Source: an uncultured bacterium (GTDB taxonomy: Bacteria > Edwardsbacteria > AC1 > EtOH8). Taken from it: a DNA stretch of 64,000 nt. The position numbers and the translations under genes are program-made. The stretch covers positions 186,001-250,000 of the forward strand of contig CALMGM010000008.1 of NCBI GenBank assembly GCA_937863685.1. The letters are read 5' to 3'. Shown piece after piece: positions 28,133-51,288 of this stretch (the stretch's first letter is position 1; every line of letters starts with the position of its first letter). The notes beneath the pieces are model-generated. The model was not told the origin of the DNA and made no database searches. It was given only the letters and a program-made list of their open reading frames with translations.

Positions 28133-29896
28133 TTACGATTCGAACTCCGAGACCAGCATGTTCAGTTTGTCGGCTGACTGTGACAGGGTCTGGGCCACTG
28201 CCGTGAGCTCCTCCATCGAAGCCGTCAGCTCCTGCACTGCCGCCGCCACCTCCTGGGTCGAAGCGGCGGTGTCGATGGCCACGTTGGAAACATCCGAGGC
28301 CAGCTTGACCACCTCGGTGGCGCTTTTGCTTTGGTTGCGGGTGGCCTCGGCTATCTGCTTGACCATGGTCCCGGCCACCGCCACCGTGCTGTTGATCACC
28401 TTGAGCGACTGCTCGGTCTGGTCCACCGTTATCTTGCTGGCGTCAATGGTGCTCCGGCTGGAGTCGATGACCTCCACGGTCCTGGCTATCTCCTTCTCCA
28501 CCTCGCCGATCAGGGTGGCCACTTTCAGGGCCGAGTTGCCGGCCTCCACCGCCAGTACCCGGATCTCGTCGGCCACCACCGAGAATCCCTTGCCGGCCTC
28601 GCCGGCCCGGGCCGCTTCGATGGCGGCATTGAGGGCCAGAAAATCGGTCTGCTGGGAAAGATTGGAGATCAGGCTGACCACCACCCCGATCTCGGCCGAT
28701 TTCTTCTGCAGGTCCTGGACCTTCTGATTGGTAAGGGCCGCTGACTGGTATATCTCGGCCATCTTGGACACCGCCTCGAAGGTCTTGGCGGCCCCGGATT
28801 GCGAGGCATCGATGGCCTTCTGGGAGGAGACCATGGTCATCCGGCCCTGGGATTCTATCAACTTGATGGAATTGGAGAGTTTCTCCACTTCCTTGGCCAT
28901 CTGGGTCAGCCTCTCCGACTGAACGGTGGTGCCCCGGGATATCTGCTGGACGGTGGAGGATATCTCCTGGCTGGAGGCGCTCATCTCCTGGGAGGAGGCC
29001 GCCAATTGCTGGGAGCTGGCCGCCAGGTTGGAGGCCACATTGGTTATCTCCCTGACCATCTGGCGGATCTGCCCCACAAAGCGGTTGTAGGCCTGGCAGA
29101 GGTCCCCCAGTTCGTTGTTGCCCAGCACCGGAAGCTTCCGGGACAGGCCGCCCTTGCCCTCGGAAATATTCTGCAGGATGGAGGTCAGCATGGTCACGGT
29201 GCGGTTTATGCCTTTGGCTGTAAGATAGGCTATGATCAGGGTGGCCACGATCCCCAGGATGGACACATACCAGATGCCGGGATATTTGGCGATGATCACC
29301 CCGAAAGCAAAAGCCAGGATCATTATCACGGTGAACAAAATTATCAGTCTCCACCGGATGCTCAGGCGGTAGGAATTCCGGTATATTTTCTCGGTATCGA
29401 CTGAGCCGGCCGCCAGCTTGGTGATATAGGGGGAAAGCAGGGTCTCCTCCAGAAGGAATATCAACGAGCCGGCCACAATGCCGGTCAAAAATCCCGGCAG
29501 GATTATCTGCAGGGTGTGGGCCAGGGTGACCCCGGTGCCCATGAACATCATCAGCAGGGCGCAGGCGGGAACCCCGACGGTAAAATGCCCCAGCATGTGC
29601 AGCGAGGTGACCAGCGGAAAATTAAGAGCACAGTTGAAAGCCTGGTCGCTCCCGGTATTATCGCCTTCCTCCCGGCTGAAATAGGCCATGATCGGCTTCA
29701 GCCTTCGGCGGTTTATCGCCTGCAGTTCGGCGGCCAGGACCAGGGCCCAGGCCGGGCCGAAAAAGAAAAGGAATTTCAGGGCCGCCGGGGGAAGGTTCAC
29801 CGAATGACCCACGAAAATTATTACCAGGGGGACCCCCAGGAAGACCGCGATCACATCCGGGATCGCCAGGATCAGATGGAACTTGTTATTTTTCAT
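28133..29896 (-). CDS. Methyl-accepting chemotaxis protein with multi-pass membrane sensor
   Basis: 587 residues. Six or seven hydrophobic helices occupy residues 8-240 with no sizeable periplasmic domain, then a HAMP domain (about 240-290) and a cytoplasmic signalling coiled coil with the conserved hairpin [27 protein letters not shown] (residues abbreviated; tip around 425-445). Methylation helices flank it. No CheR-binding pentapeptide is seen at the C-terminus. Ribosome site GGGGGCG upstream. Likely senses a signal in the membrane (lipid, redox state or proton motive force) and controls CheA. Confidence 0.92.
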
Positions 29897-31967
29897 TTTC
29901 CGCCCCCTTTATCTGGAAGCTGTCCACCTGCCGTTTGAGCTCCTCCGCCAGATGGGCCAGCTCCTGGGCCGAGGCCGTCATCTCCTGCATGGAGGCCATC
30001 TGTTCCTGCTGAGCGGCGGCGGTCTGCTCCATGCCCGAGGCCGCCTCCTCGGCCACCACCGCCACCTGTTCGATGGCCTTGGCGATCTTCTTGACCCCCT
30101 CCACCTGGCTGCCGGTGGCCAGGGATATCTGGGAGGCCCGGTCGGCCGAGAGTTTCACCGCCTGGATGATCTGGGAGAAGGCCTGGTTGCCTTTGGCCGC
30201 AAAGTCCTTGCCCTCGGCCACCTGGTCATCGACCTTTTTCATGGCCAGCACCGTCTGCTCGGTCTCGGCCTGTATTTCTTTGATGAGGTCCTCGATCTCC
30301 CTGGTGGCACCGGCGGTGCGCTCGGCCAGCTTCTTGACCTCCCCGGCCACCACCGCAAAGCCCTTGCCGGCGTCGCCGGCCCGGGCGGCCTCGATGGCCG
30401 CGTTGAGCGCCAGCAGGTTGGTGCGCCGGGCCACCGAGGAGATCAGTTCGGTGATCCGGCCGATCTCGCTGGTGCGCTTCTCCAGATCGCCCACCACGTT
30501 GGTCAGGTGGGACATGGTCTCGTCTATTTTGCCCATTTGGTGGACGATGCTCATCATGGTGGCCCCGCCCTGCGAGGCCACCTCCACCGCCTGGTTGGCC
30601 GATTGGGCCGAATCCCCGGCGTTGCTGCTGACCTGCTCCACCGATGAGGAGATGTCGTCGATGGCCTCCTTGGTCACCCGGACCGACGTCACCTGGGTGC
30701 CGATGCCCTGGGAGATCCTCTGGACGGTGGCCGAGATCTCCTGCTGTGAGGCGTTCATCTCCTGGGTGGAGGCCGCCAGCTCCTCGGAGGTGGTGGCCAC
30801 CCCGTTGGCCGTGTTGATGATGGTCTTGACCAGGTTCTCCAGCTTGTCGGTGAAGGTGTTGAAATGCCTGGTCAGTATTCCGATATCGTCGTTGGACTGC
30901 TGCTGGATCTTGGTGGTCAGATCGGCCGAACCGGTGGCCATGTCGCCGATCATCCGGCTGATCACGTTGACCGGCTTGACCACCATCCGCCGGATGATAT
31001 ACCGCACCAGCAGCAGCACCACCACGAAGGTCACCAGCAGGACCAACACCACGTTGCTCAGCAGTCTCTGGAACAGCTGGGTTATTATCATGCCGTCCAG
31101 GTTGAGCTGGGCCGCCAGTTTGGTCATCAGTTGCAGGATGGTCACCAGGATCATCCCCATGGACAGGGTCAGGGCCGAGAACAGGATTATCACGAATCCG
31201 CTGGTGATCTTGGATTCCAGACTCACCTCCCGGCCCTTCTCCATGGCCTTGAACAGGGTGACCAGGGCCCAGCCGATGATGCCGGCCGGCACCAGCATGG
31301 TCAGCAGGCCGGTGATCCCCAGCTTGGAGAACAGGTAGACCCCGATTATGGAGATGGGGGCCAGGACCAGGTTCAGCTTCAGGTCCGACCAGGTCAGGCC
31401 CAAAACATCCCGGACGGTGAAGGTGCCTTCGATAAGGTGATAGGCGCTGACCAAAAGATCGTTCACCAGGACATAGATCAACAGGGCGGCCAGCAATTTA
31501 GGCAGGTTGCCCCAGCTTAAAATATCGGTGCCGCTCTGTCCTCCCACGGCGGAAAATACCCAGGCCATGGCCAGGACCGCGAATACGAACTGACCCGGGA
31601 TGAAGAAAACCCTGGGCCATGGTTTCTTCCTTTTGATCTGGTGAAAGATGGAGGGCAGATATATGGCCAGGATCGCCGGGACCGGGCCGAATACCAGAAA
31701 GGTAAAGTAGACCACCACCAGGTCCAGGGAGACGAACACCCCGCCTGGCAGGGCCACGGTGAACCACTGGCAGATGGTCACGGTCAGCATCAACAGCAGC
31801 GCTGCCCACCATTGGATGTTCAGTTCGCCCAGCCGGAATCCCAGGACCAGAATGACCGCACCGGCCGCCGCCACCGTCCAGGCAAACAGATTGCGCAAAT
31901 TTATTCTGCTCAGCACTTTTTTATCTCCATAATGTGATTTCCTGTGTCGATTGGACCGCCCCGCCAT
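29886..31967 (-). CDS. Methyl-accepting chemotaxis protein with MASE-like membrane domain
   Basis: 693 residues. The N-terminal 230 residues form seven or eight transmembrane helices ([17 protein letters not shown] is typical of integral-membrane sensor domains of HD-GYP and GGDEF proteins). A second pair of helices (about 235-330) encloses a short loop and leads into HAMP (about 325-380). The signalling domain has the tip [20 protein letters not shown] and [20 protein letters not shown]. So it looks like a fusion of a membrane-sensor module to an ordinary small chemoreceptor. It overlaps the next receptor gene by 11 bp. No C-terminal tether for CheR/CheB. Confidence 0.92.
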
Positions 31968-31969
31968 CC

Positions 31970-32395
31970 TCAGACAATGGACAGGTATAATTGCCTGGGA
32001 TTTATGGCAAAGATTATTTGGTTGTTATATTCAAAAGCATCATCCACCGATCCCAGGCTGGCTGTCAGTAACGGGTCGATCTCGATGGTGCTGCCCAGCC
32101 CTTTGGGAATGATATCCCCCACCTCGTCGGTCAGCAGCCCGATGGCCGTCTCCCCGGCCTGCAGAACGATCACCTGTCTCCGTTCCGCCCCGGGTTGACC
32201 GTCCCCGGATATCTCCGAAAGATCCACCACCGATATCTCCCGGCCCAGCCATTCCATGATCCCGGCCACCGACCGGCCCAGGGCCGGCAGGCTGATCAGG
32301 GACGGTTCGAAAACTATCTCCTGCACCTGGGCCAGATCCAGGCCGAACCAGACGCTGCCCAGCCGGCATAACAGCCATTTGCCGTCCCGGCTCAT
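31970..32395 (-). CDS. cheW: CheW coupling protein
   Basis: 141 residues with the CheW fold: [22 protein letters not shown] at the start, [27 protein letters not shown] in the middle, and [21 protein letters not shown] before the closing strand. It links the two downstream chemoreceptors to the CheA kinase. A GAGG ribosome site precedes the ATG at 32395, which directly abuts the upstream TPR gene. One of three CheW-type proteins in the window, so arrays may be of mixed composition. Confidence 0.88.
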
Positions 32396-33250
32396 CTATA
32401 CCTCATCGTTCCTCAGGAGCTCCATCTGCTCGGCGGCCTTCTTGGCCCACCAATTGTGGGGCGACAGCTTGAGGCATTTCTCCCATTCCTTAAGGGCCGC
32501 ACCGTACATCTTCTTCATATGGTATACCTGGCCCAGGTGATAATAGGCCTCGATCAGGTTGGGCCCCAGCACCGTGGACTTGGAGAAGAAGAACATGGCG
32601 TCGTCCAGCATCTGCCGCTCCAGATAGACCAGTCCCAGATAATAATGGGCGTACAGCACCGCGGTGCGGTCCTTGCCGGACTTGATCACCCGGCTCAGGT
32701 GTTCGATGGCCTCGCCGAAGATCCCCTTTTTGAAGGAGATGAAGCCCAGGTTGTTCCGCACCGCGTCATTGTTGGGCTCCAGCTGCAGCACCTTCAGGCA
32801 GACCGACAGCCCCTCGTCGTACATCCCCTGGTAGCTGTAGGCCCAGCCCAGCAGGCCCAGGGCCTTGGTATCGTTGGGATTGAGTTTGACGGCGCTGGAC
32901 AGCGAACCGATGGCCTGCTCGAACTGGCCGGAGCATATCTGGTTCCAGCCCTCGGCCACATAGGTGGAGCTGCCCAGCGAATCGGTGCGCATGGTCTCCA
33001 CAAAGGACTTGATCATCACCCGGGACTCGTCCTCGCTGACAGTGGCCGACTTGTACTGGTCGATCAGCGATTTCACCGAATCGTGCAGAACGCCAAGATG
33101 CTTGATGGCCACTGCGATCTCCTTGTACAGCGACCGGATCTCCTGTTCCAGCCTGGCCGACTGGGTCTTGGCATCCGGGCTTTTAAGGGACTGCTGGATG
33201 GAGGCTATCTTGTCCTGGAAGCCATTGACCAGTTCCGACAATGCGGCCAT
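32396..33250 (-). CDS. TPR protein of the chemosensory cluster
   Basis: 284 residues. A helical N-terminus (about 1-95, coiled-coil-like, NGFQDKIASIQQSLK) is followed by about five TPR units (GWNQICSGQFEQAI, LGLLGWAYSYQGMYDEGL, RNNLGFISFKKGIFGEAI, YYLGLVYLERQMLDDAM, YYHLGQVYHMKKMYGAAL). No enzyme motif. Ribosome site AGGTGG before the ATG at 33250. Probably a scaffold binding one of the Che or Mgl proteins; the partner cannot be named from sequence. Confidence 0.8.
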   Translation of the reverse strand: MAALSELVNGFQDKIASIQQSLKSPDAKTQSARLEQEIRSLYKEIAVAIKHLGVLHDSVKSLIDQYKSATVSEDESRVMIKSFVETMRTDSLGSSTYVAEGWNQICSGQFEQAIGSLSSAVKLNPNDTKALGLLGWAYSYQGMYDEGLSVCLKVLQLEPNNDAVRNNLGFISFKKGIFGEAIEHLSRVIKSGKDRTAVLYAHYYLGLVYLERQMLDDAMFFFSKSTVLGPNLIEAYYHLGQVYHMKKMYGAALKEWEKCLKLSPHNWWAKKAAEQMELLRNDEV

Positions 33251-33297: not shown

Positions 33298-34344
33298 TCA
33301 CCGGCAGGACCTGACGATGGCCCCGGGGATCTGCTCCAGAGGCAGCACCTCGTCCACCGCTCCGGTCTCCACCGCCGCCTTGGGCATGCCGTATACCACG
33401 CAGGTGGAGCGGTCCTCGGCGATGATGTGTCCGCCTTTCTTCTTGAGGCTGGCCACCCCGTTGGCCCCGTCGTGCCCCATCCCGGTCAGTATCACCCCCA
33501 CCGTCTCGGCCGGGGAGTAAAGAGCCACCGACTCCATCATCACATCCACCGAGGGCCGGACCCCGAACTTGGGGGGATTCTGATTCAGCTTGATCCGGTC
33601 CCCGGAGGGGGACAGCTCCATATGGTATCCGGCCGGGGCCAGCAGGGCCAGCCCCCTTTCCAGCATATCGCCCTCCTGGGCCTCCTTGATCCTGATCTTG
33701 CTGCGGTTGTCCAGCCGTTCGGCCAGGGATTTGGTGAAGCCCACCGGCATGTGCTGGACCAGCAGCAGGGCGGCGTTTATCTCCCGGGGCAGCTTGGGCA
33801 GGATCTCGGACAGGGCCCGGGTCCCGCCGGTGGACGAGCCGATGGCCAGGGTCTTCATGACCCCGGACGGGGCCCTGCCCTCGGGCATGGCCGGGGCCGG
33901 GTGATGCCCGGTGCCGGGTTTCATCTTGGCCAGATCCACCTCGGCGGCGATCCTGATCTTCTCCACCAGCTCCACCCGGACCTTGTCTATGTCCAGGGAG
34001 ATCGAGCCCGAGGGTTTGGTCACAAAATCCACCGCCCCCAGTTCCAGGGCCAGCAGGGTGGACTCGGCCCCCTCCTTGGCGTGGGCCGACAGCATCACCG
34101 TGGCCACCGGCGATTCGGTCATCAGCCGGGCCAGGGCCTGCAGGCCGTCCATCTTGGGCATCTCGATGTCCATGGTGACCACGTCGGGCGACAGCTGGCG
34201 GACCTGTTCGATGGCCTCCAGGCCGTTCTTGGCCGAGCCCACCAGCTTGAAGCCCGGGGTGGCCTTGATGATATCGCCCACCATGTTGCGCATCAGGGTG
34301 GAGTCGTCCACCACCAGGACCTTTATGGTGCGGAGGTCAGTCAT
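33298..34344 (-). CDS. cheB: Chemotaxis response regulator methylesterase CheB
   Basis: 348 residues, normal CheB length. Receiver domain with VVDD (11-14), phosphoacceptor Asp59 in TMDIEMPKMDG and Lys110 in DFVTKPSG. Methylesterase domain with the catalytic triad Ser170 or 171 (AIGSSTGG), His198 (LLVQHMP) and Asp292 (GMGHDGANG). It removes methyl groups from (and deamidates) chemoreceptor glutamates when phosphorylated by CheA, opposing CheR encoded nearby. Confidence 0.97.
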   Translation of the reverse strand: MTDLRTIKVLVVDDSTLMRNMVGDIIKATPGFKLVGSAKNGLEAIEQVRQLSPDVVTMDIEMPKMDGLQALARLMTESPVATVMLSAHAKEGAESTLLALELGAVDFVTKPSGSISLDIDKVRVELVEKIRIAAEVDLAKMKPGTGHHPAPAMPEGRAPSGVMKTLAIGSSTGGTRALSEILPKLPREINAALLLVQHMPVGFTKSLAERLDNRSKIRIKEAQEGDMLERGLALLAPAGYHMELSPSGDRIKLNQNPPKFGVRPSVDVMMESVALYSPAETVGVILTGMGHDGANGVASLKKKGGHIIAEDRSTCVVYGMPKAAVETGAVDEVLPLEQIPGAIVRSCR

Positions 34345-34375: not shown

Positions 34376-34870
34376 TTACAGCTCCTTCAGCCCGGCCCGG
34401 AAGGAATGGACGATCACCGTGCCCGAAGATATCAAAAATTCCACCGACCGGCCGTAGTCGGCCCCGGTGTCCTCGGCCACGACGGGGATCCCGTAATTGT
34501 TCAGCTCCTGCTTGGCCTGCAGGGTGTTCCTCTGCCCGATGTTGCTGTAGCTGGTCTTGCCCGAATTGAGCAGCTTGGAGAACATGTTGGCCCCGCCCAC
34601 CAGCTTGCTGACCATCCGGATCCGGGAGCAGCCCATCCCCTCCAGCGTCGTGATCAGCTCCTTGATGGCGGTGGTGGCGAATTTGGCCGGGTTGCTCTGG
34701 TTGCGCACCAGGTCGGGCTCGGGAAGCATCACATGGGCCAGCCCGCCGATCTTCAGCTGGGGATCGTAGATGACGATGGCCAGGCAGGAACCCAGCCCGT
34801 GGGTGGTTATGATGGCGGGGCTCTTGGCTATTTTATAGTCCGCTATTTTCACGATCAGCTCGTTGGACAA
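34376..34870 (-). CDS. cheD: Chemoreceptor glutamine deamidase CheD
   Basis: 164 residues, the usual CheD length. The catalytic pair is present: Cys29 in THGLGSCLAIVIYD and His46 in GLAHVMLPEP; the conserved SKLVGGANMF and IGQRN motifs follow. It converts receptor Gln residues to Glu and, with CheC, forms a feedback loop. The start codon is TTG at 34870, supported by an AAGGAA ribosome site about 7 nt upstream. Confidence 0.95.
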   Translation of the reverse strand: MSNELIVKIADYKIAKSPAIITTHGLGSCLAIVIYDPQLKIGGLAHVMLPEPDLVRNQSNPAKFATTAIKELITTLEGMGCSRIRMVSKLVGGANMFSKLLNSGKTSYSNIGQRNTLQAKQELNNYGIPVVAEDTGADYGRSVEFLISSGTVIVHSFRAGLKEL

Positions 34871-34899: not shown

Positions 34900-35721
34900 T
34901 TATTTTACGGTCCGGTATATTCTTTCCTTGATGTCGAAGGAGACGAAGGTGTCCTTCATCTGCCCGAACATGTTCTCCACCTTGCCCAGCACCAGAAATC
35001 CGTTGGCCCGAAGTGCTTCGGCGAACTTATAGAAGATGTCCTCCTGGGTCTGCCGGGAGAAGTAGATCAGCACGTTGCGGCAGAAGATCAGGTCCACTTC
35101 GCGGTAGGGATACCGGGAGAACAGGTCCAGCTTCTCGAACTGCACCATGTCCTTGATCTGCTGGGACAGGTGATATTTGTCGCCGCGGTTCTCAAAGTAT
35201 TTCCCGATCAGTTTCTGGGGGATCTCATCCATGCTGGACCGGGGATAGATCCCGGCCCTGGCCTTCTCCAGTATCTGGGCGTCTATGTCGGTGGCGTAGA
35301 TGCTGCATTCCTTGGACAGGCCCCGGGCCTGGGAGAATTCGCGCCACATGATGGCCAGCGAATAGGGCTCCTCGCCCGAGGAACATCCCGCGCTCCATAT
35401 CTGGACCGGGCGGTTCTGGCTTTCCTCCAGGATTATCGGCAGAACCTTGCCAAAGACCGCCAGATAGGTCTCGGCATTGCGGTAGAATTTTGTGACGTTG
35501 ATGGTCAGGGTATCTAGCAGCTTGGCGTACTCCCCGGGGTCGTCCTTGAGCTTCCGGCTGTATTCCTCATAACTGCTCACCTGGCAGGAACGCATCCTTA
35601 CCGCCAGCCTTCTCTTGAGGGGGCGCTCCTTGTACTGTCTTATGTCGAAACCGCTGTCGGCCAGTATCTTGTTGGCCAGGGCCAGCAGTTCCGGGTCGCC
35701 GAGGTTACTTGGCGAAAGCAT
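34900..35721 (-). CDS. cheR: Chemotaxis protein methyltransferase CheR
   Basis: 273 residues. The N-terminal helical domain has the basic receptor-binding patch (RPLKRRLAVRMR) and TINVTKFYRN; the SAM domain has IWSAGCSSGEEPYSLAI (108-123), IYATDID and DLIFCRNVLIYF. It methylates glutamates of the two chemoreceptors. It overlaps the PATAN-TPR gene by 17 bp. Confidence 0.97.
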   Translation of the reverse strand: MLSPSNLGDPELLALANKILADSGFDIRQYKERPLKRRLAVRMRSCQVSSYEEYSRKLKDDPGEYAKLLDTLTINVTKFYRNAETYLAVFGKVLPIILEESQNRPVQIWSAGCSSGEEPYSLAIMWREFSQARGLSKECSIYATDIDAQILEKARAGIYPRSSMDEIPQKLIGKYFENRGDKYHLSQQIKDMVQFEKLDLFSRYPYREVDLIFCRNVLIYFSRQTQEDIFYKFAEALRANGFLVLGKVENMFGQMKDTFVSFDIKERIYRTVK

Positions 35722-37324
35722 TCTTGTCCATCAGTGAAAGGTTTCTTTTGACCATCTGGTTCTCCGGGTCGGCCTCCAGGGTCTTCCTCCACCACTGGAC
35801 GGCCAGTTCCTTCTGGCCCTGCTTGAGATAGAGGTTCCCCAGCCGGGACATGTCCTGGGGCTCCAGCAGTTCCAGCTCGGCCATCCGGTTGAGTGTCTCC
35901 ACCGACTGTGAGGCCATGCCGTTCTGGTAATACAGCTCCAGCAGGTTGCGCAGCACTGTCCGGTCGTTGGGCCTGGCCTTGAGGGCCGCGCTGTAATACC
36001 TTTCCGCCTCCTCGTCCTGGCCCTTGGCCTGCATCATGGCCCCGATATTGTTCTGCACCGCATGGTTGCTTTTGCTGCTGTTCTCGATGGAAACCCACAG
36101 TTTCAGGGCCTGTTCGGGATCATTATCCTTGAGGGCGATCAGCCCGGACAGGAAGGTCACCAGATCCGGCCGGGGGGCCGCCGGGTCCAGCCGGTTAAGC
36201 TGTTCCCGGGCCGATTCTATCTCGCCGTCGGCGCACAGCAGCAGGGCCAGATTGGCCCGGGGCAGAGCATATTCCGGGGCCAGCTCGGTGGCCCGGCGGT
36301 ACTGGCGGGCGGCATCATCCCTCTCGCCCATCATCTCCAGGCTAAGGCCCAGGTTGTTGTAGGCCACAGCCCTCTTTGGCTCCACCGCAATGGCCTCCAG
36401 GAACTCGGTGGCCGATTCGGCGTATTCCCCTTTGCGGAAATGGATCAGGCCCAGATAGAAGCGGGCCTCATAATGGTCCGGCCTGATCTCGATGATCCGG
36501 CGGTACTCCCGCAGGGCCTCGTCGAACATCTGGGTGCGGTAGAAGGCCATCCCCAGGTTGCGGTGATCCTCGATGATGTTCAGGTTCCAGGAGGCGGCCT
36601 GCTTGCTTTTCTCGCTTCCCCGCTTGACCAGCCCGGCCAGCAGCAGCCCGTAGATTATCTTGGAGGTCGAGAACTCGCCCAGGGCCGACGTTTCCATGAT
36701 CTCGGCCAGCGAGCGGTATCCGTCGACCAGCGACAGCACCTGCTTCTCCTCGCCGTTGAGATTCAACTCATCCTGCTTCTGCACCTCCATCATCACCCTC
36801 TCCAAGACGGTCTGGGGGGTGGGAAGCTTCTTCTCCAGGGTCCGCCATTCGTCCACCCGGCGGGCCTCCTCCAACAGCAGGTTCATGGCGTCCAGGGACA
36901 CCAGGATGGTCTCGCCCTCCGGCAGGGAATCCGGCTCGAAGAAGAATTCTCCGTCGGGCCAGCGCAGCAGATAGAAGATGGTGTCCTCGATCTGGCCGGA
37001 GACATCGCTTTCGATGTCCGGCTGCCGGATCAGCCCCATCTCCAGCAGGATCCCTCCCAGCCGGCGGGTCCCGCCCTCCTGCTGCTGCAGGGCCAGTGCA
37101 TCCTGCAGGTTCTGGGAGGTGATCAGGCCCCGGGAGAACAGCCTGTCCCCCAGTCGGTCCGGCCGGTTGAGCAGATTGGCGAAACAGATCTTGCCTTCGG
37201 CAAAATAAATGCTGCCGAAATTGCTGCCGTCGGTGACCTTCAGGCAGCCGGTCTTCCGCCCCACCGCTAGAAGCTGCAGGACGTCCGGCAGGCTTACCTC
37301 TTTGAATGATCCCTTTATCGCCAT
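35705..37324 (-). CDS. PATAN (DUF4388) domain protein with TPR repeats
   Basis: 539 residues. Residues 1-60 hold the PATAN/DUF4388 signature (GSFKEVSLPDVLQLLAVGRKTGCLKVTDG, then GSIYFAEGKICFANL), followed by a second winged-helix-like region (FSRGLITSQNLQDALALQQ, LGGILLEMGLI). The C-terminal 300 residues are TPRs (for example AFYRTQMFDEALREYRRI, YNNLGLSLEMMGERDDAARQY). PATAN proteins are adaptor scaffolds common in chemosensory and MglA/Frz-like systems. A paralogue lies at 41364-42629. Probably links phospho-signalling to the GTPase module (inference). Confidence 0.88.
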   Translation of the reverse strand: MAIKGSFKEVSLPDVLQLLAVGRKTGCLKVTDGSNFGSIYFAEGKICFANLLNRPDRLGDRLFSRGLITSQNLQDALALQQQEGGTRRLGGILLEMGLIRQPDIESDVSGQIEDTIFYLLRWPDGEFFFEPDSLPEGETILVSLDAMNLLLEEARRVDEWRTLEKKLPTPQTVLERVMMEVQKQDELNLNGEEKQVLSLVDGYRSLAEIMETSALGEFSTSKIIYGLLLAGLVKRGSEKSKQAASWNLNIIEDHRNLGMAFYRTQMFDEALREYRRIIEIRPDHYEARFYLGLIHFRKGEYAESATEFLEAIAVEPKRAVAYNNLGLSLEMMGERDDAARQYRRATELAPEYALPRANLALLLCADGEIESAREQLNRLDPAAPRPDLVTFLSGLIALKDNDPEQALKLWVSIENSSKSNHAVQNNIGAMMQAKGQDEEAERYYSAALKARPNDRTVLRNLLELYYQNGMASQSVETLNRMAELELLEPQDMSRLGNLYLKQGQKELAVQWWRKTLEADPENQMVKRNLSLMDKNAFAK

Positions 37325-37361: not shown

Positions 37362-38696
37362 TCATATATCCTCGGCCAGCCTGTCCTCCAGGGACGGCCA
37401 GTTCTCCACTATGATCCCCAGGTGGGCCGGGGCCGCTTCGGGCTTGGCTCCTTCAGCCTCCTGGCTGAGTGAGGCGATCTTGGCCAGCACCGGCGCCTCC
37501 CCGGTCGGCAGATCGGGCTGGGGCGGCGGGGCAGGAGGCTGGGGCCGGCTGGGGGCCGGGGCCGCCGCCGGGGGTGCCGTCCGGGACAGCGACCTGACCG
37601 CCATCTCCAGATCGTCGGCCTTGTCGGGGTCGAACATCAGGCTTTCGATCTTCCCTATCTGCTCCGGTGAGGCCTTGGTTGACAGCGGTCCGAACTCCTG
37701 CTGCAGGGCTATCAGTTTTTCGATGTTGCGGGTGTACTCCTGGTAGGCCTCGGTGACGATGGAGATGTCCTGTTCCAGGATCTTCTCTATATTGGCGGTG
37801 TTGAAGCCCTTCATCTTCCAGATGAACAGCCTCTCCTTGTATTCCTGGCGCAGCTGGTCGGCGTTCTGCTGCTCGTCGATCAGGGCGGTGACCTTGTGGT
37901 CCAGGCCGGAGATGAAATCGCCGAACTCGCCCGTCTGGATGTCGCCGGGGGAAGTCTCCGGCGGGAGCGGGATATCCGGCTCCGCCTGGACGGCGGGGGA
38001 TTGCACCGGTGGCAGGGCTTCGTCTATCACCTCCCGGGTCAGCGGCCCATCGGAGAGCGAGGCATACAGCAGCACCTTGTTGAGGGCCCCTTCCAGCTCC
38101 CTGATATTGGTGGGGACCCGGGAGGCTATCAGCAAGGCGATGTCATCGGGCAGTTCGGCGCCCCGGTCCCGGCTCTTGCGGGAGATGATCAGGCTCTTCT
38201 CCCTGATGTCCAGTTCCTTGAGTCCGATGATCAGGCCGCCCAGCAGCCGGGAGAGCAGCTTCTGGTCGATGCTCTCGATCTTCTGGGGGGTGATGTCGGT
38301 GGTGGCTATTATCTGGCGGCCGGAGCCCACCATCCGGTCGAACAGGGGGAGCAGGCGGATCTGGATCTTCTTGTCTTGCAGGCCCAGATGCAGGTCGTCA
38401 AAAAGCAGCAGATCCGACTTCTCGGCGGCGATCAGGTCCTCCAGCGACATCTGGCTGCCGTTCAAAAAGACCAGGTTCCAGGCGGGATGGATCAGGGACA
38501 CCGCGTTGCCGATGGCCTGCATCAGGTGGGTCTTGCCCAGGCCCACCCCGCCGTGGATCAGCAGGGGATTATAGATGTTGCCGGGATTCTCGGACACCTT
38601 GCGGGCGGCGGCAAAGGCCAGCCGGTTGCTGGGCCCGGTGACGAAATTATCGAACTGATAAACGCTCTTTAATATGTCGGGCATCCCTTCGGTCAT
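37362..38696 (-). CDS. DnaA-like AAA+ ATPase lacking the DNA-binding domain
   Basis: 444 residues. Residues 10-235 match the DnaA AAA+ domain: YQFDNFVTGPSNRLAFAAARKV, Walker A GGVGLGKTHL (49-58), Walker B LLLFDD (96-101), sensor I IIATTD, box VII LLSRLLGG, and sensor II PTNIRELEGALNKVLLYA (about 195-212). There is neither the N-terminal DnaB-binding domain nor the C-terminal helix-turn-helix domain IV, so it should not initiate replication. Instead a helical part (270-370, with RLFIWKMKGFNTANIEKILEQ) and a Pro/Ala-rich tail follow. Ribosome site AGAGGA before the ATG. It lies directly before mglA in transcription terms next to the PATAN gene. Function unknown; an ATP-driven assembly factor in the polarity module is a guess. 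Confidence 0.88.
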   Translation of the reverse strand: MTEGMPDILKSVYQFDNFVTGPSNRLAFAAARKVSENPGNIYNPLLIHGGVGLGKTHLMQAIGNAVSLIHPAWNLVFLNGSQMSLEDLIAAEKSDLLLFDDLHLGLQDKKIQIRLLPLFDRMVGSGRQIIATTDITPQKIESIDQKLLSRLLGGLIIGLKELDIREKSLIISRKSRDRGAELPDDIALLIASRVPTNIRELEGALNKVLLYASLSDGPLTREVIDEALPPVQSPAVQAEPDIPLPPETSPGDIQTGEFGDFISGLDHKVTALIDEQQNADQLRQEYKERLFIWKMKGFNTANIEKILEQDISIVTEAYQEYTRNIEKLIALQQEFGPLSTKASPEQIGKIESLMFDPDKADDLEMAVRSLSRTAPPAAAPAPSRPQPPAPPPQPDLPTGEAPVLAKIASLSQEAEGAKPEAAPAHLGIIVENWPSLEDRLAEDI

Positions 38697-38710: not shown

Positions 38711-39304
38711 CTATCTCCGGTATTTGGCGCTGAGCGACTGCAGGACCAGGGCGGAGATGGCCTTGAGGGTGTCGAACACCCCGGCCCCGGTGGTGGCCAC
38801 CGCCTCGTAATGGGGGACCTTCCTGAAATTGAGGGCATGGTCCAGCTCGGCCACCGAGACGATGTTGGGCATGTCCCTTTTATTGTACTGCATCACCAGG
38901 GGCACCTTGCTGATGTCCATGCCCAGGATGCCCAGATTGTCGCGCAGGTTGGCCAAGCTCTCGGTGTTCTCCTGCCACAGGTCCACCTGGGAATCGGCCA
39001 CGAACACGATACCGTCGGCCCCCTGCAGCACCAGCTTGCGGGTGGAGTTGTAGAACACCTGCCCCGGAACGGTGTACAGCTGGACCCTGGTCTTGTACCC
39101 GGCAATGTCCCCCAGCTCCAGAGGCAGAAAATCGAAGAACAGGGTCCGGTCCTTCTCGGTGGCCAGGCTGACCATGGAGCTGCGCTTGGCGTCGGGGATC
39201 TTGCCGTAGATGTACTGCAGGTTGGTGGTCTTGCCGCAGCGCCCCGGGCCGTAATAGACGATCTTGCAGGTGATCTCTTTTGATGAATAGTTGATTAGCG
39301 ACAT
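38711..39304 (-). CDS. mglA: MglA-type Ras-like GTPase
   Basis: 197 residues, almost the length of Myxococcus MglA. The start SLINYSSKEITCKIVYYGPG, P-loop GPGRCGKTT (19-27), the unusual TVPGQ at 78-82 (Thr where Ras has Asp), NKRD (141-144) and an FFDFLPLELG switch I region are all MglA hallmarks. MglA-GTP marks the leading pole in gliding and type IV pilus motility; Roadblock (MglB-like) proteins act as its GAP. Three Roadblock-domain genes lie just upstream in transcription. Confidence 0.95.
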   Translation of the reverse strand: MSLINYSSKEITCKIVYYGPGRCGKTTNLQYIYGKIPDAKRSSMVSLATEKDRTLFFDFLPLELGDIAGYKTRVQLYTVPGQVFYNSTRKLVLQGADGIVFVADSQVDLWQENTESLANLRDNLGILGMDISKVPLVMQYNKRDMPNIVSVAELDHALNFRKVPHYEAVATTGAGVFDTLKAISALVLQSLSAKYRR

Positions 39305-39364: not shown

Positions 39365-39916
39365 TCAGGAGAACAGCTTGGACAGGGCGTCCTCCACCGC
39401 CTGGTTGAAATCGGGCAGGGCCTCTTCCTGAGGCGCCGGGACCCCGGCGGCGGGGGCCGGAGCCTGGTCCATCTCCTGGGAAAGGTCACGGGCCGCCTGG
39501 TCGGTATCGGCCACAATGGCCCGGGCCAGCACCGGGGACATCTCCCGCTCGGCCTCGCCGGCGGCGTGGCGGATCATTCCCACCACGGTGGACTTGTCGA
39601 ACACCGTGGCCAGGATGAACTGGTCGGAGATCAGGCAGAAGTACACGTTCCAGTTCTTCCCCTCCTGGAACATCACCTTGAACTTCTCCTCATCCACAAT
39701 TTTGGCCAGGGCCTGGGTGGAGGTGAATATCCCTCCGATCAGGGCGGCGATGGATTGGACGTTGAAGTTGGAGGTGAAGCCGGCCTGGCTGATCAAATGG
39801 CCGCTCTTGGACAGCAGCAGGACGCAGCTGGCCCGGCTGTCCTTGAGGTAGCGGCCCATGGAGGCCTCCACCGCCCGGTTGATATCATCCGACAGGACGA
39901 ACTGAATGTTGGTCAT
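39365..39916 (-). CDS. Roadblock/LC7 domain protein (MglB-like)
   Basis: About 183 residues from the ATG at 39916, which overlaps the preceding Roadblock gene's stop as ATGA; the longer frame to 40021 is rejected. The N-terminal 120 residues have the Roadblock pattern: INRAVEASMGRYLKDSRASCVLLLSKSGHLISQAG, SIAALIGGIFTSTQAL and VYFCLISDQFILATVFDKSTVVGMIRHAA. An acidic, Pro/Ala-rich tail ends in an amphipathic helix (DFNQAVEDALSKLF). Likely regulator or scaffold of MglA. Confidence 0.82.
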   Translation of the reverse strand: MTNIQFVLSDDINRAVEASMGRYLKDSRASCVLLLSKSGHLISQAGFTSNFNVQSIAALIGGIFTSTQALAKIVDEEKFKVMFQEGKNWNVYFCLISDQFILATVFDKSTVVGMIRHAAGEAEREMSPVLARAIVADTDQAARDLSQEMDQAPAPAAGVPAPQEEALPDFNQAVEDALSKLFS

Positions 39917-40254
39917 AGCATATCCATCAAGTGTTCCAGGCTGGCCTTCATCTTTATGGACACCAGGCCGATATTGGCCCCGGTCTCGGTGATCACGATC
40001 AGGATGCAGTGCTGGGCGCACAGGAAGATGATGTTGCCCTCGCTGGCCAGCAGCTGCACCCCGTAGATCTGCTCTTCCTGGCCCCGGGCCAGCGATTTGA
40101 CCACCTGGTTGAAGATGGAGGCCACCATGGCGCTGATGGTCCGCTCCTCCAGGCCGGACATCAGGTTGGAGGCGATCACCAGGCCCTCCTTGTCGATCAC
40201 CACGCTGCCCTTGACCCCGGGGATGTCGTTTATCTGGTTGAGTATGTTCTTCAT
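39913..40254 (-). CDS. Roadblock/LC7 domain protein (MglB-like)
   Basis: 113 residues, a bare Roadblock domain: INDIPGVKGSVVIDKEGLVIASNL, ISAMVASIFNQVVKSL, QIYGVQLLASEGNIIFLCAQHCILIVITETGANIGLVSIKMK. It matches MglB-type dimers that stimulate GTP hydrolysis by MglA. ATGA overlap with the next gene. Best single candidate here for the MglA GAP, by size and context. Confidence 0.82.
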   Translation of the reverse strand: MKNILNQINDIPGVKGSVVIDKEGLVIASNLMSGLEERTISAMVASIFNQVVKSLARGQEEQIYGVQLLASEGNIIFLCAQHCILIVITETGANIGLVSIKMKASLEHLMDML

Positions 40255-40281: not shown

Positions 40282-41283
40282 TTATGAGGACAGGTTCTTG
40301 ATCCGGTCGATGGCCCGTTTGACGTTGACCGCCACCAGACCGGTCTTGGCCGAGCTCTCGGCGGTCACCATCAGCACCTGGCTGCCCACCCGGCTGAGGA
40401 AGATCTTTTCGTTCCTGGTATCTATCACCACCCTCTCCAGCTCGCCCAGCTTCACCTTCTGCATGGCCTCCGAAGCCGAGGTGAACACCAGGGACGACAG
40501 GGCCCCCGATGACTCTTCATCCAGCCCGGCGCTCTGGGGGGCCGTGGCGCTGGCCACCGGATAGCCGGACTCATCAACCAGCAGGCTGGCCCGGACCTGC
40601 GGGGTCTGGATTATCTCATTGAGGATCCGACCGTAGGAACTCATGGTCTTGGGATCGGCCTCGGTCGGCGGTTTGGGCGGAATGGCGGTCTTCTCCGGAG
40701 CCGGCTCGGCGGGGACCTCCATCGGGCCGGCCTGGCTTGCCGGTTCCGGCGGCACGAATTCGATCTTGGGTTTTTCAGCCGATTCGGCGGCCAAAGCCAT
40801 CATGGCCTGTGCCCCTTTGTGAAAATCGGAGGGGTCGGCCATCGCCGGTCCCGCCGGGACGGCTGTCGGGGTCGGGATGGCTTCCTCGGCCAAGGGGGTC
40901 TCTTCCGCCTTCTCGGGGTGGATCGGCGATTCTTCGGCAGGCGATATCGCGATCTCCTGGAGTTCCGATCCGCCTGGTTTGTCCAACTCAGCCAGGACCT
41001 TCTTGGCCAGGGAATTCTGGGGCTGGACCGAAAGGATCTTGGTCAGCTCGGCCCGGGCCCGTTCCGTATGGCCGGTCCCCTTGTAGCACTGGGCCAGCAC
41101 CAGCCGGGCCTCGATGTTGTTGGGATGGCTCTCCAATCCGGTCAGGCAGATATTGATGGCCTCCTGATACAGCCCGTTCTCGCGGTAGAAGTCGGCCAGG
41201 GAACCGAACAGCAGCGACGACGGATCGTCGACCACCTGATCGGAAAAATCCTTGACGCTGTCCGAAGGGATATCCGATAACAT
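40282..41283 (-). CDS. TPR-Roadblock fusion protein
   Basis: 333 residues. Residues 20-110 hold two or three TPR units (FGSLADFYRENGLYQEAI, ARLVLAQCYKGTGHTERA); a Pro/Glu/Ala-rich linker spans about 110-215; the C-terminal 115 residues form a Roadblock domain (NEIIQTPQVRASLLVDESGYPVASA ... VLMVTAESSAKTGLVAVNVKRAI, shortened). Ribosome site AGGACC before the ATG at 41283. Third Roadblock protein of this cluster; the TPR part could tether the GTPase module to another partner. Confidence 0.85.
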   Translation of the reverse strand: MLSDIPSDSVKDFSDQVVDDPSSLLFGSLADFYRENGLYQEAINICLTGLESHPNNIEARLVLAQCYKGTGHTERARAELTKILSVQPQNSLAKKVLAELDKPGGSELQEIAISPAEESPIHPEKAEETPLAEEAIPTPTAVPAGPAMADPSDFHKGAQAMMALAAESAEKPKIEFVPPEPASQAGPMEVPAEPAPEKTAIPPKPPTEADPKTMSSYGRILNEIIQTPQVRASLLVDESGYPVASATAPQSAGLDEESSGALSSLVFTSASEAMQKVKLGELERVVIDTRNEKIFLSRVGSQVLMVTAESSAKTGLVAVNVKRAIDRIKNLSS

Positions 41284-41363: not shown

Positions 41364-42629
41364 TCATTCCCCGGCTATCGGCAGCCGGCGTTCCTTGATC
41401 TTCTTCATCTTCTCCAGCCAGGCCTTGACCTCGGGACTCAGCTCCGGGGCCGGCGCCTCCGGCTTCTCGAAGCCGGCCATGGTCTGCTTCCCGTCGGCGA
41501 TATCGGCCTTGTCCTCCAGTCCCTCGGCCCACCTCACCGCCAGGTCCACCAACTCCCTGATCTTCCCGCCCCTCTTGTCCTGGTGCGAAAAGGACAAAAA
41601 CCTCTCCCACCTTTCCACCGCCAGTTCCAGTCGTCCGATCTTGGCGTAGGCAAAACCCAGGCAGTAGTTGATCTCCGGATTGTCGTCCCGTCCCTGGCTG
41701 GCCAGCTTGTATTCCATGATGGCCTCGTCGAAGGACTCGGTCTTGTAATAGGCTTCGGCCAGATAGAGGTGGGCCAGCGGGGAATCCGGGTCCTTCTGCA
41801 GGATGTCGGAAAAGGCCTCGATGGCTTTTTCCAGCTGGTCCTTTTTGATCAGCTCCAGGCCGGCCTTGACGGGATCCTTCACCGGCTCCTGGACATCCAG
41901 CGACAAAGGGCCTTTCAGGGCGGTGGCCTTCACCAGGCCGGTGGCGCACAGACCGTAGATGACCTTGGCGGTCTCGAACTCGCGGCCCCCCACCGAGGCT
42001 ATCACCTGGCGGGCGGTCTTCTGGCCGTCGATGTTGGCCAGGATCAGCCACTCCTCGGGCTTCAGGTCCAGCCGGGCCGAGGTCAGGTCGCTGCCCGGGG
42101 CCAGGGTCAGCACCATATTCAGGTCGGGCAGCTTGGACTGGATCTTGGACCATTCGTCCAGCCGGCGGGAGACCTCCATGATCACGTTCTCGGTGATCTG
42201 CACGAAGGCCAGATTGGGATCCGAGACCAGCTCCATGTCCTCGAACCGGAAATAGCCCTCCTGCCAGCCCATGATGGTGGATACCGTCTCCTCCACCTGG
42301 GTCTTCAGCATGCCCAGGACCGTGTTCTTGGTGGCGAAACCGCGCTCCACCGACAAAGCGCCGATCTTCTTTTTCTGTTTGGTGCTGGCCTGCTCCTTGA
42401 GCAGGATGTCCAGCTGATCCTTGCTGAGCTTGCCGGATGACAGCATCATCTGGCCCAGCTTCTCCTGGCCCTGCTGCAGGGTGCTGCGGATGATGTTGCC
42501 GGAGACGAAGAACACCTGGCCCACGTTGCGGGTGCAGTCCAGGGTCAGCACGCCGGATTTGCGGGACATGGCCAGCAGCTGGAACAGGTCCATCAGGCTG
42601 AGTTCTTTTATGGGGCCTTCGATCGCCAT
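41364..42629 (-). CDS. PATAN (DUF4388) domain protein with TPR repeats
   Basis: 421 residues. The N-terminus MAIEGPIKELSLMDLFQLLAMSRKSGVLTL and VGQVFFVSGNIIRSTLQQG fits PATAN, followed by a helical region (KLSKDQLDILLKEQ) and C-terminal TPRs (FSDILQKDPDSPLAHLYLAEAYYK, YCLGFAYAKIGRLELAVERW; abbreviated). It is a shorter paralogue of the protein at 35705-37324. It is the last chemosensory gene before the AT-rich defence island in coordinate order. Confidence 0.86.
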   Translation of the reverse strand: MAIEGPIKELSLMDLFQLLAMSRKSGVLTLDCTRNVGQVFFVSGNIIRSTLQQGQEKLGQMMLSSGKLSKDQLDILLKEQASTKQKKKIGALSVERGFATKNTVLGMLKTQVEETVSTIMGWQEGYFRFEDMELVSDPNLAFVQITENVIMEVSRRLDEWSKIQSKLPDLNMVLTLAPGSDLTSARLDLKPEEWLILANIDGQKTARQVIASVGGREFETAKVIYGLCATGLVKATALKGPLSLDVQEPVKDPVKAGLELIKKDQLEKAIEAFSDILQKDPDSPLAHLYLAEAYYKTESFDEAIMEYKLASQGRDDNPEINYCLGFAYAKIGRLELAVERWERFLSFSHQDKRGGKIRELVDLAVRWAEGLEDKADIADGKQTMAGFEKPEAPAPELSPEVKAWLEKMKKIKERRLPIAGE

Positions 42630-43661: not shown

Positions 43662-43662
43662 A

Positions 43663-44544: not shown

Positions 44545-44579
44545 AATAACCAATATCTTGATAATAAAGTTTTAGTTAA

Positions 44580-45574: not shown

Positions 45575-45588
45575 ATATTCTTAGGCAA

Positions 45589-45890: not shown

Positions 45891-48578
45891 TCACCTTCCC
45901 CCCGCCACCTGCTCCCATTGCATGGCAGCTTCGATGGCCTTCCCGGCCAGGGATTTTAAGACCTCGTCGCTGGTGAAGGAGATGGCCTTCTGCCAGGCCT
46001 CCACCGCGTCCCGGGTCTTGCCCCGCTGGGCCAGCAGCCGGCCCCACAGCAGGTACAACTCGGGCTGGTCGCCGTGGGTCTGCATCAGCTCCTGGCATAA
46101 CTGGTAGGCCTTGTCTGGATTGCCGGCCTTGACCGCCAGCTGGGCCAGCCCCAGTTTGGCGGCAAACGAATCGGGAGATATCTTGGCCGACAGGGCATAT
46201 TCCACCGCGGCCTTGTCCAGCTGGCCCAGCTTGGCGTAGGACTCGCCCAGGGCCAGGTGCGATTCCAGATGGGCCGGGCTGTTGGTCACCGCCTTTTTCA
46301 GTTCCTCCACCGCCGGCTCCAGCTTGTCCTGCGAGATGTACAGTTGGGCCAGCTTGAAATAACCCTGGGGCATTTTGGGATTGAGTTTTATCACCTGGCG
46401 GTAGGCCATGACGGCCTCCTCGGGCTCGTTCTGCACCGCAAAGATCTGCCCCAGCCCCAGGAAAAGCGAGATATCGGAGGGATTTATCTTCAAAGCATTT
46501 TCGTAACAGGCTCTGGCCTCCTGATAGTCGCAGCGCTCCAGGTATATCCGGCCCAGCTCGGACAACAGTTCCACGTCCTCCGGCCGGGCACCTATCTCCT
46601 CCCGCAGGATGGCAATGGCGTTGTCGCCGTCGCCCTGCATCAGGTGAGCCCTGGCCAGCCCGATCTTGAATTCCTTGCGCTCCGGGCTCAGCTTGGCCAG
46701 CACCCCGTACCTGACTATGGCCTCGGGCCCCTGCTTCTCGTCCATCGCCAGCTGGGCCAGGGTCTCCAGGGCCAGCAGGTTCTGGGGCTGCTGCTCCAGG
46801 ATGGCCTTGGCCTTCTTCTTCATCTCATCGCCTTTGCCCTCGGTGCGGAGCTTTTTCAGGCTTTCGATGTCGGACTCCAGGGCCGCTTCGTCCCATTTGC
46901 CGGCCTTGGCCCGGATGGAGGCCTCCTCCAGCACCCCGCCGAAGATGTCCTGGGCCACGGTGGTGCCCTGCTCCTGGCCGGACCCCTGCCAGCCGTCCAG
47001 GATCAGCAACTCCGGATCGTCCACGTAAAAGTCGATGCCCAGTTTGAACGAGCCGCCGGTGTAGTAGGACTTGAGCTCCATGGCCCGCTTGGTGGCGGCC
47101 AGCGATTCCTGGTACTTCTCCTGAGCCGCCAGGGCGAAGCCCAGGTTGTAATAGGCTTCGGCGAAGTCGGAATCCAGCTTGATGCAGTGCTCGAATTGGG
47201 CCAGGGCCTCGGTATAGGATTTCTGCTTAAGGAAGAGCAGGCCGATGTTGTTGTGGGCCAGGGCCGAATCCTGGTTCAGCTTCAGTACCTCCTGATATTC
47301 GGACATGGCCAGATCGTTCTTGTCCTGCTTGTAGTACAGCAGTCCCAGGTTGAAATGGGCATCGCCGTACTGCGGCATTTGAGCGACGGCCTTTCGGAAG
47401 GTCTCCTCGGCCAGGCCCTGCTGTTCCTGATAGACATAGGCGATCCCCAGATTGTTGAAGCTGACCACGTACCCGGGGTCGGAATCGATGGCCCGCTGGT
47501 ACCATTTGATCGCCTCGGCCGAGGTCCCCATCCGATGATAGGCCAGGCCGATGTCGTTGTAAAGTTTGGCGTTGTCGGGGTCGAACTCCAGGGCTTTCTT
47601 GTAGGCCTCTATGGCCTTCTGGTTCTGCCCCATGAACAGGTAGATCTCGCCCACCTCCTTGTGAACGATCCGGTTCTCCCCTTCCAGGGAAAGGGCCTGT
47701 TCGAACTCCTTGAGGGCCTGCTTGAAAAGCCCCTTGCGCCGGAAGCCCACTCCCAGGTTGTAATGGGTCATGAATCCGTCCGGGGCCACCTGCACCTGGT
47801 TCTCCGAATGGCGTTTGATCTCGGTCAGCAGGTCCTGGCTGTAATAATCGATGCCCAGGTTGGCCTGGGCCTTGGAGTAATTGGGATTGAGGGCGATGGC
47901 CTGGCGGGATTCCTCGATGGCTTTTTCCAGCAGCCCTTTTTCGCCGTAGGTGAAGCCCAGCAGGAAATGGGCCTCCGAGCCGCCGGGATTCAGTTTGATG
48001 GCTGTCTCCAGCTGGTTGATGGACTGGTCCAGCAGCCCCAGGTTGTAGTAGATCTCCCCCAGCGCGGTATGGATGACGTAGGAATCGGCGTCCAGCTTCA
48101 GGGCCTGCTGGTAGATCTCCACCGCTTCGTTGAACTGTCCCTGTTGTTTCAGGGTCAACCCCAGATAGAGGTAAGCCAGCATGTCGCCGGGCCTGAGTTC
48201 CACCGCCTTCTGGTAGTTGGCAATGGCCGACTTGTACTGACCGGTGTTGCGCAGCGCCTCGGCCAGCCGGAAATAGGCGTTGGCATCGGGATTCTTCTTC
48301 AAGGCATCCTCGGCCTGCTGGATCTCGTTGTGGTAGTAGCCGCTCTTTCGGTAGACCACCTCCAGGTTGTTCCTGGCCAGAACATTCTGGGGATCTATCT
48401 CCAGGGCCATCTGCAGGACCTCGATGGCTTCGGCATACATGCCCTTGTTGAAATAGACCACCCCCAGATTGTTGTGGGCCGAGGCATCCTTGGCGTCGAT
48501 CCGGCTCCTGAAGCCCCGCAGTATCTTCTGCTCCTCGGGGCTGACCGGGGAGATGTTTTTTTCTTCAGCGTGTTCCAT
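45891..48578 (-). CDS. Large TPR protein (895 residues)
   Basis: Nearly the whole protein is built of 34-residue TPR units (over twenty; for example HNNLGVVYFNKGMYAEAI, THYNLGVGFRRKGLFKQAL, YFRLAEALRNTGQYKSAI), interrupted near residues 530-590 by a non-repeat stretch. There is no signal peptide, membrane helix or enzyme motif. It is an interaction scaffold sited between the defence island and cheC. The antisense strand has a 775-codon open frame due only to GC-rich codon use. Confidence 0.88.
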   Translation of the reverse strand: MEHAEEKNISPVSPEEQKILRGFRSRIDAKDASAHNNLGVVYFNKGMYAEAIEVLQMALEIDPQNVLARNNLEVVYRKSGYYHNEIQQAEDALKKNPDANAYFRLAEALRNTGQYKSAIANYQKAVELRPGDMLAYLYLGLTLKQQGQFNEAVEIYQQALKLDADSYVIHTALGEIYYNLGLLDQSINQLETAIKLNPGGSEAHFLLGFTYGEKGLLEKAIEESRQAIALNPNYSKAQANLGIDYYSQDLLTEIKRHSENQVQVAPDGFMTHYNLGVGFRRKGLFKQALKEFEQALSLEGENRIVHKEVGEIYLFMGQNQKAIEAYKKALEFDPDNAKLYNDIGLAYHRMGTSAEAIKWYQRAIDSDPGYVVSFNNLGIAYVYQEQQGLAEETFRKAVAQMPQYGDAHFNLGLLYYKQDKNDLAMSEYQEVLKLNQDSALAHNNIGLLFLKQKSYTEALAQFEHCIKLDSDFAEAYYNLGFALAAQEKYQESLAATKRAMELKSYYTGGSFKLGIDFYVDDPELLILDGWQGSGQEQGTTVAQDIFGGVLEEASIRAKAGKWDEAALESDIESLKKLRTEGKGDEMKKKAKAILEQQPQNLLALETLAQLAMDEKQGPEAIVRYGVLAKLSPERKEFKIGLARAHLMQGDGDNAIAILREEIGARPEDVELLSELGRIYLERCDYQEARACYENALKINPSDISLFLGLGQIFAVQNEPEEAVMAYRQVIKLNPKMPQGYFKLAQLYISQDKLEPAVEELKKAVTNSPAHLESHLALGESYAKLGQLDKAAVEYALSAKISPDSFAAKLGLAQLAVKAGNPDKAYQLCQELMQTHGDQPELYLLWGRLLAQRGKTRDAVEAWQKAISFTSDEVLKSLAGKAIEAAMQWEQVAGGR

Positions 48579-48612: not shown

Positions 48613-49230
48613 TTATCCCAGATGGATGGCTTTCAGTATCACTCCCAGCGAGTCGGAGTCCGGCAGCAGCAGGAAATAACCATGCAGGATCGCATTCTTC
48701 TCCACGAAGCGGAATTCGGTCTCGATGCACACCACCAGGTCCTTGTCGTTGCCGAAATCCAGCGACACCGCGTCCAGCACCGCCGAGGCCATGTCCACCG
48801 TCATGCTGGGCACCGAGGGCACCACCACCAGGCCCAAAAGATCTCCCAAGGCGTTCATGTAGGCGCAGGTCAGGACGTTGGAAACCTCCTTGAGGGCCGA
48901 CTCCTCCAGCTCCCCGATCCCGGTGGTGGTCCCCACCGGGCGGCGCAGCAGGCAGTCGGTCAGGTGCCAGGCCGCCTCCTGGGGGAACATCAGCAGGGTC
49001 CGGCCGGTCATGTCGCCCAGGAAATATATCAGCACCCCGGCCACCACCTCGCTGGGCTTGGCGGCCATGTTGAATATCTCCTCGATGGGGTTGATCCTGA
49101 TCACCGGAACGTTGACCAGCACCTTCTCGTTGGTCAGCTCCGACAGGGCGGTGGCAGCATGGCAGGCCCCGATGTTGGCCACCTCCTTCAGGGCATCCAG
49201 TTGTATCGCTCCAAGTTCGTTGAGTTCCAT
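48613..49230 (-). CDS. cheC: CheC family CheY-P phosphatase
   Basis: 205 residues. Both CheC active-site signatures are present: LDALKEVANIGACHAATALSEL (Glu16, Asn19) and EESALKEVSNVLTCAYMNALGDL (Glu114, Asn117; quoted in part). Two sites mark CheC rather than FliY or CheX. It dephosphorylates CheY-P and is stimulated by CheD, also encoded here. GAGAGG ribosome site before the ATG. Confidence 0.93.
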   Translation of the reverse strand: MELNELGAIQLDALKEVANIGACHAATALSELTNEKVLVNVPVIRINPIEEIFNMAAKPSEVVAGVLIYFLGDMTGRTLLMFPQEAAWHLTDCLLRRPVGTTTGIGELEESALKEVSNVLTCAYMNALGDLLGLVVVPSVPSMTVDMASAVLDAVSLDFGNDKDLVVCIETEFRFVEKNAILHGYFLLLPDSDSLGVILKAIHLG

Positions 49231-51214: not shown

Positions 51215-51288
51215 GGAATGCCTATATCCCAAGGCCTCCGCCGATGGCGGAAGCTGCAGGATATCAGGTTATCCTGATGCTCCGGCGG

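Follow-up and report, generated by a model that had tools for sequence, protein, structure and literature searches.

DnaA-type AAA+ domains have been described in the initiation of replication and in its regulation. Among them, Hda and HdaA are short DnaA-domain proteins without a DNA-binding domain or an initiator-specific motif (ISM). In DnaA itself, the ISM binds single-stranded DNA and ATP is associated with filament formation (PMC5448010). A 2014 survey of prokaryotic small GTPases already placed MglA close to PATAN genes and makes no mention of a DnaA-type gene (Wuichet and Sogaard-Andersen, 2014; PMC4316618), and nothing relevant linking DnaA with MglA, PATAN/DUF4388 or Gemmatimonas was found in the open-licence literature. 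Here, we analysed a window of 64,000 nucleotides from an uncultured bacterium of the Edwardsbacteria, in which a gene for a DnaA-like ATPase (37362..38696; this gene, its protein segments and the operon genes positioned below are all on the minus strand) stands among chemosensory genes. At a probability of roughly 0.5, its product is a chemosensory adaptor with a built-in DnaA-type ATPase, which would dock on the neighbouring PATAN2 protein and act as an ATP-dependent self-assembly switch.

The open reading frame encodes 444 amino acids, and residues 9-232 (38001..38672) correspond to DnaA domain III, as identified by profile and structure matches and by motif alignment. These residues match TIGR00362 (E 9.2e-59; 199.6 bits, below the cut-off of 343.9), Pfam Bac_DnaA (E 1.1e-36) and the best solved DnaA structure (E 8e-38), and share with DnaA the AAA+ fold, Walker A and B motifs, sensors and arginine finger. 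The protein differs from DnaA in that domains I, II and IV are missing, the ISM region is 12 residues shorter in the Edwardsbacteria lineage, and the gene stands in a che/MglA operon and not in a dnaA-dnaN pair. A Pfam scan gave no match to DnaA_N or Bac_DnaA_C, the domain IV helix-turn-helix for DnaA boxes is absent by both scan and alignment, and domains I and IV were found in none of the family members scanned. The sequence-only reading of this gene, a DnaA-like ATPase next to mglA that is devoid of the N-terminal and helix-turn-helix domains, is thus confirmed. The genome's own DnaA (446 aa, complete) is encoded on another contig (G000:C5), adjoins a dnaN-like gene and is 37% identical to the DnaA-like protein, which is neither the sole initiator of the genome nor above the DnaA equivalog cut-off. 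Both proteins are encoded in each of the nine further genomes searched from this genus or family, where the DnaA-like protein is 51-82% identical to that of the window, and the nearest named relative, a Candidatus Edwardsbacteria MAG (L032), encodes a protein with 80% identity within a syntenic operon. Because of this conservation and synteny, the gene is no chance reading frame.

In minus-strand order, the operon starts with CheA (49277..51232), CheC (48613..49230) and an 895-aa TPR protein (45891..48578), and continues with PATAN1 (DUF4388 and TPR; 41364..42629), a TPR-Roadblock protein (40282..41283), the MglB-like Roadblock protein 1 (39913..40254), Roadblock-like protein 2 (39365..39916) and the GTPase MglA (38711..39304), whose match to M. 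xanthus MglA structures has E 3e-82 and whose gene lies 14 bp upstream of the DnaA-like gene. Directly downstream of the latter comes PATAN2 (DUF4388 and TPR with an MshEN-like insertion; 35705..37324), followed by CheR (34900..35721), CheD (34376..34870), CheB (33298..34344), a 284-aa TPR protein (32396..33250), a CheW-like protein (31970..32395) and two methyl-accepting chemotaxis proteins (29886..31967 and 28133..29896). Apart from MglA, these assignments come from domain scans, or from synteny (both TPR-only proteins, which are conserved operon members), sequence and position (Roadblock-like protein 2), sequence and synteny (CheW) or sequence (both chemotaxis proteins). The neighbourhood of PATAN, CheR and mglA genes described from the sequence alone therefore widens to a whole che operon. 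Described MglA-Roadblock (MglB)/PATAN neighbourhoods have the same three kinds of genes side by side, whereas in the window they form part of a complete CheA/C/R/D/B operon. A predicted MglA GTPase and a putative Roadblock partner are encoded in one operon, as would be expected of a polarity module, and the DnaA-like gene very probably belongs to this conserved chemosensory-MglA operon. A restriction-modification island (window 42669-45840), consisting of a D12 methylase, a NotI-type endonuclease, a predicted membrane protein (no family match) and an Mrr-type nuclease, sits between the 895-aa TPR gene and PATAN1. The island is missing from the corresponding position of the syntenic L032 operon, into which a small XRE regulator and a lipoprotein-like gene have been inserted at other points (L032:6835-7200 and 14702-15463).

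With a profile of the helical region that follows the AAA+ domain, the protein family was detected in 10 of 10 genomes of the window's taxonomic family. It was also detected in both genomes searched of a second small phylum, as proteins of ~700 aa with an AAA-hairpin-AAA-tail architecture; their genes adjoin TPR, PATAN, CheC, CheW or CheA genes, and no mglA occurs in the stretches read around them. Iteration of the profile reached the Gemmatimonadota (assigned from contig G470:C3, identical to Gemmatirosa kalamazoonensis NZ_CP007129.1 across the 20 kb compared). Here, 80 of 150 genomes gave profile matches and five apparent negatives have the gene beside mglA, so at least 85 carry the family, usually as a tandem-AAA protein of ~650 aa; one homologue of 1227 aa is aberrant (L174). 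The gene order is that of the window, CheA-CheC-TPR-PATAN-Roadblocks-MglA-(DnaA-like)-PATAN/TPR-CheR-CheD-CheB. In 52 of the 61 full-length loci read, the gene immediately before the DnaA-like one, on the same strand, is mglA, most often with a 4-bp stop/start overlap; in the other nine mglA does not hold this position, and some loci of the Gemmatimonadota family f262 are without mglA. PATAN2 is within the next genes downstream in nearly all 61, and dnaN is in none of the family loci read. An MglA homologue is present in all 80 profile-match Gemmatimonadota genomes, compared with 33 of the 70 others (Fisher p 5e-16, a value that overstates independence as the genomes are related). Profile matches in a histidine kinase (G100), an SMC-like protein (G016), UvrA (G220) and GatB (G349) were dismissed as chance after the reading frames had been inspected. 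Homologues are thus not found mainly with replication genes, and the position of mglA, the absence of dnaN from the loci read and the separate DnaA support a non-replication role in an MglA/chemosensory pathway across phyla. The distribution suggests that the DnaA motor has been put to a use that does not involve DNA.

C-terminal to the AAA+ domain, the window protein carries a GEFGDFISGLD segment, and GEFGDFISGLDHKVTALIDE (residues 256-275; 37872..37931) is one of two segments kept in minimal forms of the family. The helical region spans residues 255-374 (37575..37934). A low-confidence structure model, derived from the window protein and the L032 homologue (mean pLDDT 43.6; used for secondary structure only), suggests that residues 259-295 and 301-335 form a helical hairpin, with WKMKGFN (residues 293-299; 37800..37820; family consensus W-x3-G-[FY]-x-T) at the predicted turn. 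In the alignment, a variable Pro/Ala-rich linker follows (residues 375-426; 37419..37574), at the site where tandem homologues have their second AAA+ domain, and conservation delimits a C-terminal tail, GIIVENWPSLEDRLAEDI (residues 427-444; 37365..37418). The helical region, the WKMKGFN motif and the Pro-rich sequence had all been described correctly in the sequence-only reading, but the final 18 residues form a conserved motif and are not plain Pro-rich sequence. The tail and the GEF segment are conserved across phyla, and the tail had no other clear match in 12 genomes searched. The protein combines all the defining features of the family, namely a DnaA AAA+ domain, GEF segment, W-x3-G[FY] hairpin and WP tail, with PATAN2 downstream.

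Naturally reduced forms of the gene occur in the Gemmatimonadota. In seven genomes of this phylum, mglA and PATAN2 are adjacent with no DnaA-like match, and the 150-240 bp between them correspond to proteins of ~65-81 aa. These minimal (MINI) proteins keep only the GEF segment (the 'GEFxxFL' helix) and the C-terminal 'WPxxxDRxIEE' tail. A MINI profile detected a gene of this kind (60-95 aa) in 23 Gemmatimonadota genomes and also matches both ends of full-length members. Frameshift debris of full genes is ruled out by this occurrence and by substitutions that fall mainly at third codon positions. PATAN2 is directly downstream of the MINI gene in 19 of 19 loci checked (12 of these read in a second round), while mglA is not directly upstream in eight. 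In four genomes (G411, G413, G589 and G598), CheC-MINI-PATAN2 remains, and mglA, Roadblock, long TPR and PATAN1 genes are all missing between CheC and the MINI gene. MglA is therefore probably not the obligate partner, since nine full-length and eight MINI loci are without it directly upstream and the downstream PATAN/TPR gene is almost always present. The AAA modules were lost at least twice, and the same two segments survived both times. Because both segments survive, the docking function would lie in them, with PATAN2 and not MglA as the likeliest partner; the genetic evidence for this partnership is gene adjacency. The reduced forms point to the two short segments as the docking core, which makes the partner directly testable.

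The DUF4388 domain of PATAN2 holds an insertion that matches an MshE-related c-di-GMP-binding motif (43.1 in the window, cut-off 38; also matched in L032, L058, L079 and L082). MshE, PilB and GspE likewise have an MshEN-type module together with a P-loop ATPase; the ATPase here is DnaA-type and not T2SSE-type, and the module and the ATPase are separate proteins. The insertion is present in PATAN2 of all AAA-bearing loci classified, whereas in 15 of 16 MINI loci PATAN2 is without exactly that 53-residue stretch. These 15 form one clade in the tree, and the remaining locus (L268) has kept the insertion and lost the ATPase independently. We had considered repeated co-evolution of the two losses and dropped it, given a single event for 15 of the 16 loci, and the joint loss is only suggestive as a co-evolution signal. 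An MshEN and DnaA AAA+ fusion of 468 aa without a DNA-binding domain (L039:3899-5305) is encoded elsewhere, in a genome that also carries a true DnaA (L040). The insertion pattern and this fusion suggest that the ATPase and the PATAN2 insertion may work together. In one alternative, the small adaptor made of the GEF segment and the tail would do all the biological work, and the ATPase would be a minor add-on that serves as a stability factor or local chaperone. This is rather unlikely: MINI does stand in for the complete gene in 23 genomes, and the loci read retain the che core of the operon, but Walker A and B are conserved across three phyla, MINI forms occur in only two branches, and the large MINI branch also loses the MshEN-like insertion, so the loss of the ATPase looks like a change of mechanism. 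The AAA part may nevertheless tune rather than drive the process, because it is dispensable in some lineages.

The states of the ATPase motifs were read in 10 members of the Edwardsbacteria lineage, 62 N-terminal AAA domains and 59 second AAA domains. All 10 Edwardsbacteria-lineage members keep the Walker A lysine, the Walker B DD, the box VII arginine finger and the sensor 2 arginine, and nine have threonine at the sensor 1 S/T position. The claim that all DnaA motifs are intact holds for these elements but not for two others: the first arginine of box VII is lysine, and a 12-residue stretch that covers the ISM, between the two Walker motifs, is deleted, each in 10 of 10 members. Among tandem members, the N-terminal AAA domain keeps the Walker A lysine in 62 of 62 and the finger in 51 of 62, and the second domain keeps the finger in 56 of 59, Walker A in 52 and sensor 2 in 40, which fits a second domain that would increasingly serve as an activating surface. 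In the tree, the second AAA domains group as a single clade (0.98) and the domain from Edwardsbacteria is placed on the side of the first domains (0.87), as would be expected if the window's lineage had lost its second domain. An ISM-length segment (29 residues, as in DnaA) is present in 56 of 62 N-terminal and 57 of 59 second domains, and such tandem homologues could still bind DNA.

The retained arginine finger, the 37% identity to the genome's own DnaA and the absence of domain IV and the ISM, as in Hda, would also suit an Hda-like regulator, whose AAA+ domain would bind the DnaA of the cell, promote ATP hydrolysis by DnaA and so couple the chemosensory or polarity state to replication initiation. 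One tandem homologue even starts with a beta-clamp-like QLQLF. However, the first 60 residues of the window protein, as of the other members (73 besides that homologue), contain no clamp-binding motif, the protein scores 84.7 bits, far under the Hda cut-off of 194.8, and the family is never with replication genes and always with che/PATAN genes. The protein further differs from Hda by its hairpin, linker and conserved tail and by the existence of tandem forms. On the features tested, the protein qualifies as neither DnaA nor Hda, and an Hda-like role appears improbable. A nucleoid tether or DNA sensor, in which the ISMs of tandem AAA+ proteins bind DNA and anchor the chemosensory/MglA cluster and the window form is a derived DNA-free variant, draws on the many ISM-length segments but is distinctly improbable, given the lack of the DnaA-box-binding domain IV, the loss of the ISM in 10 of 10 Edwardsbacteria-lineage members with the operon unchanged, and an ATPase that is wholly dispensable in 23 genomes.

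The adaptor reading with its built-in ATPase can be put in mechanistic terms. The adaptor core would consist of an amphipathic 'GEFxxFLxDI' helix and the 'WPxxxDRxIEE' tail, which would most likely dock on PATAN2, and we regard the odds of such docking as even. Added to this core, the DnaA domain, which has lost DNA binding in the Edwardsbacteria lineage, would serve as a switch for ATP-dependent self-assembly, a part of the reading that we consider evenly balanced as well. In the ATP-bound state, subunits would associate head to tail, by way of the retained arginine finger and the surface of box VII, and come apart on hydrolysis. We infer that, through this assembly, the stoichiometry or the polar placement of PATAN2 and the Roadblock/MglA module would follow CheA/CheC/CheD signalling, with motility or polarity as the output. 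In Synechocystis, the PATAN response regulator PixE is reported to act on the pilus motor PilB1 (PMC7690835), and type IV pili are therefore a reasonable guess, by analogy, for the output; array assembly, proposed together with polarity in the sequence-only reading, would be a further candidate. A more tentative proposal, which we hold to be possible but somewhat doubtful, is that a DnaA-family motor works wholly away from DNA and that its ATP-driven assembly builds or times a polar chemosensory-MglA complex, perhaps gated by the MshEN-like, possibly c-di-GMP-binding insertion of PATAN2. If true, cell polarity would have its first DnaA-type assembly clock. If recruitment of this kind took place, DnaA's ATP-dependent assembly unit would have been re-used in signalling, in a family that occurs in three phyla, with MglA in two.

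The tandem architecture also affects annotation. Because the scores of two domains add up, the tandem homologues L057, L059 and L079 reach 514-616 bits, above the DnaA equivalog cut-off of 343.9 (NCBIfam). An automatic pipeline using this cut-off would label them replication initiators, and they are likely misnamed as such in databases, which is corrected here. Several other proteins with DnaA-type domains were observed. A relative in G124 and G261 has a STAS-like N-terminus and one DnaA domain and lies outside any che operon. Near housekeeping genes in L080 and L081, a protein with STAS-like, helical and DnaA AAA+ parts and an acidic tail has the hairpin motif (W-x3-GY-x-T) in common with the family, but not the operon. 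A 1746-aa protein (L033:3512-8752) has a very long coiled coil between two DnaA-type AAA+ domains, and another of 2132 aa (L034:6958-13356) has a possible zinc-finger-like start, then TPR over ~1700 residues, and a DnaA AAA+ domain at its C-terminus.
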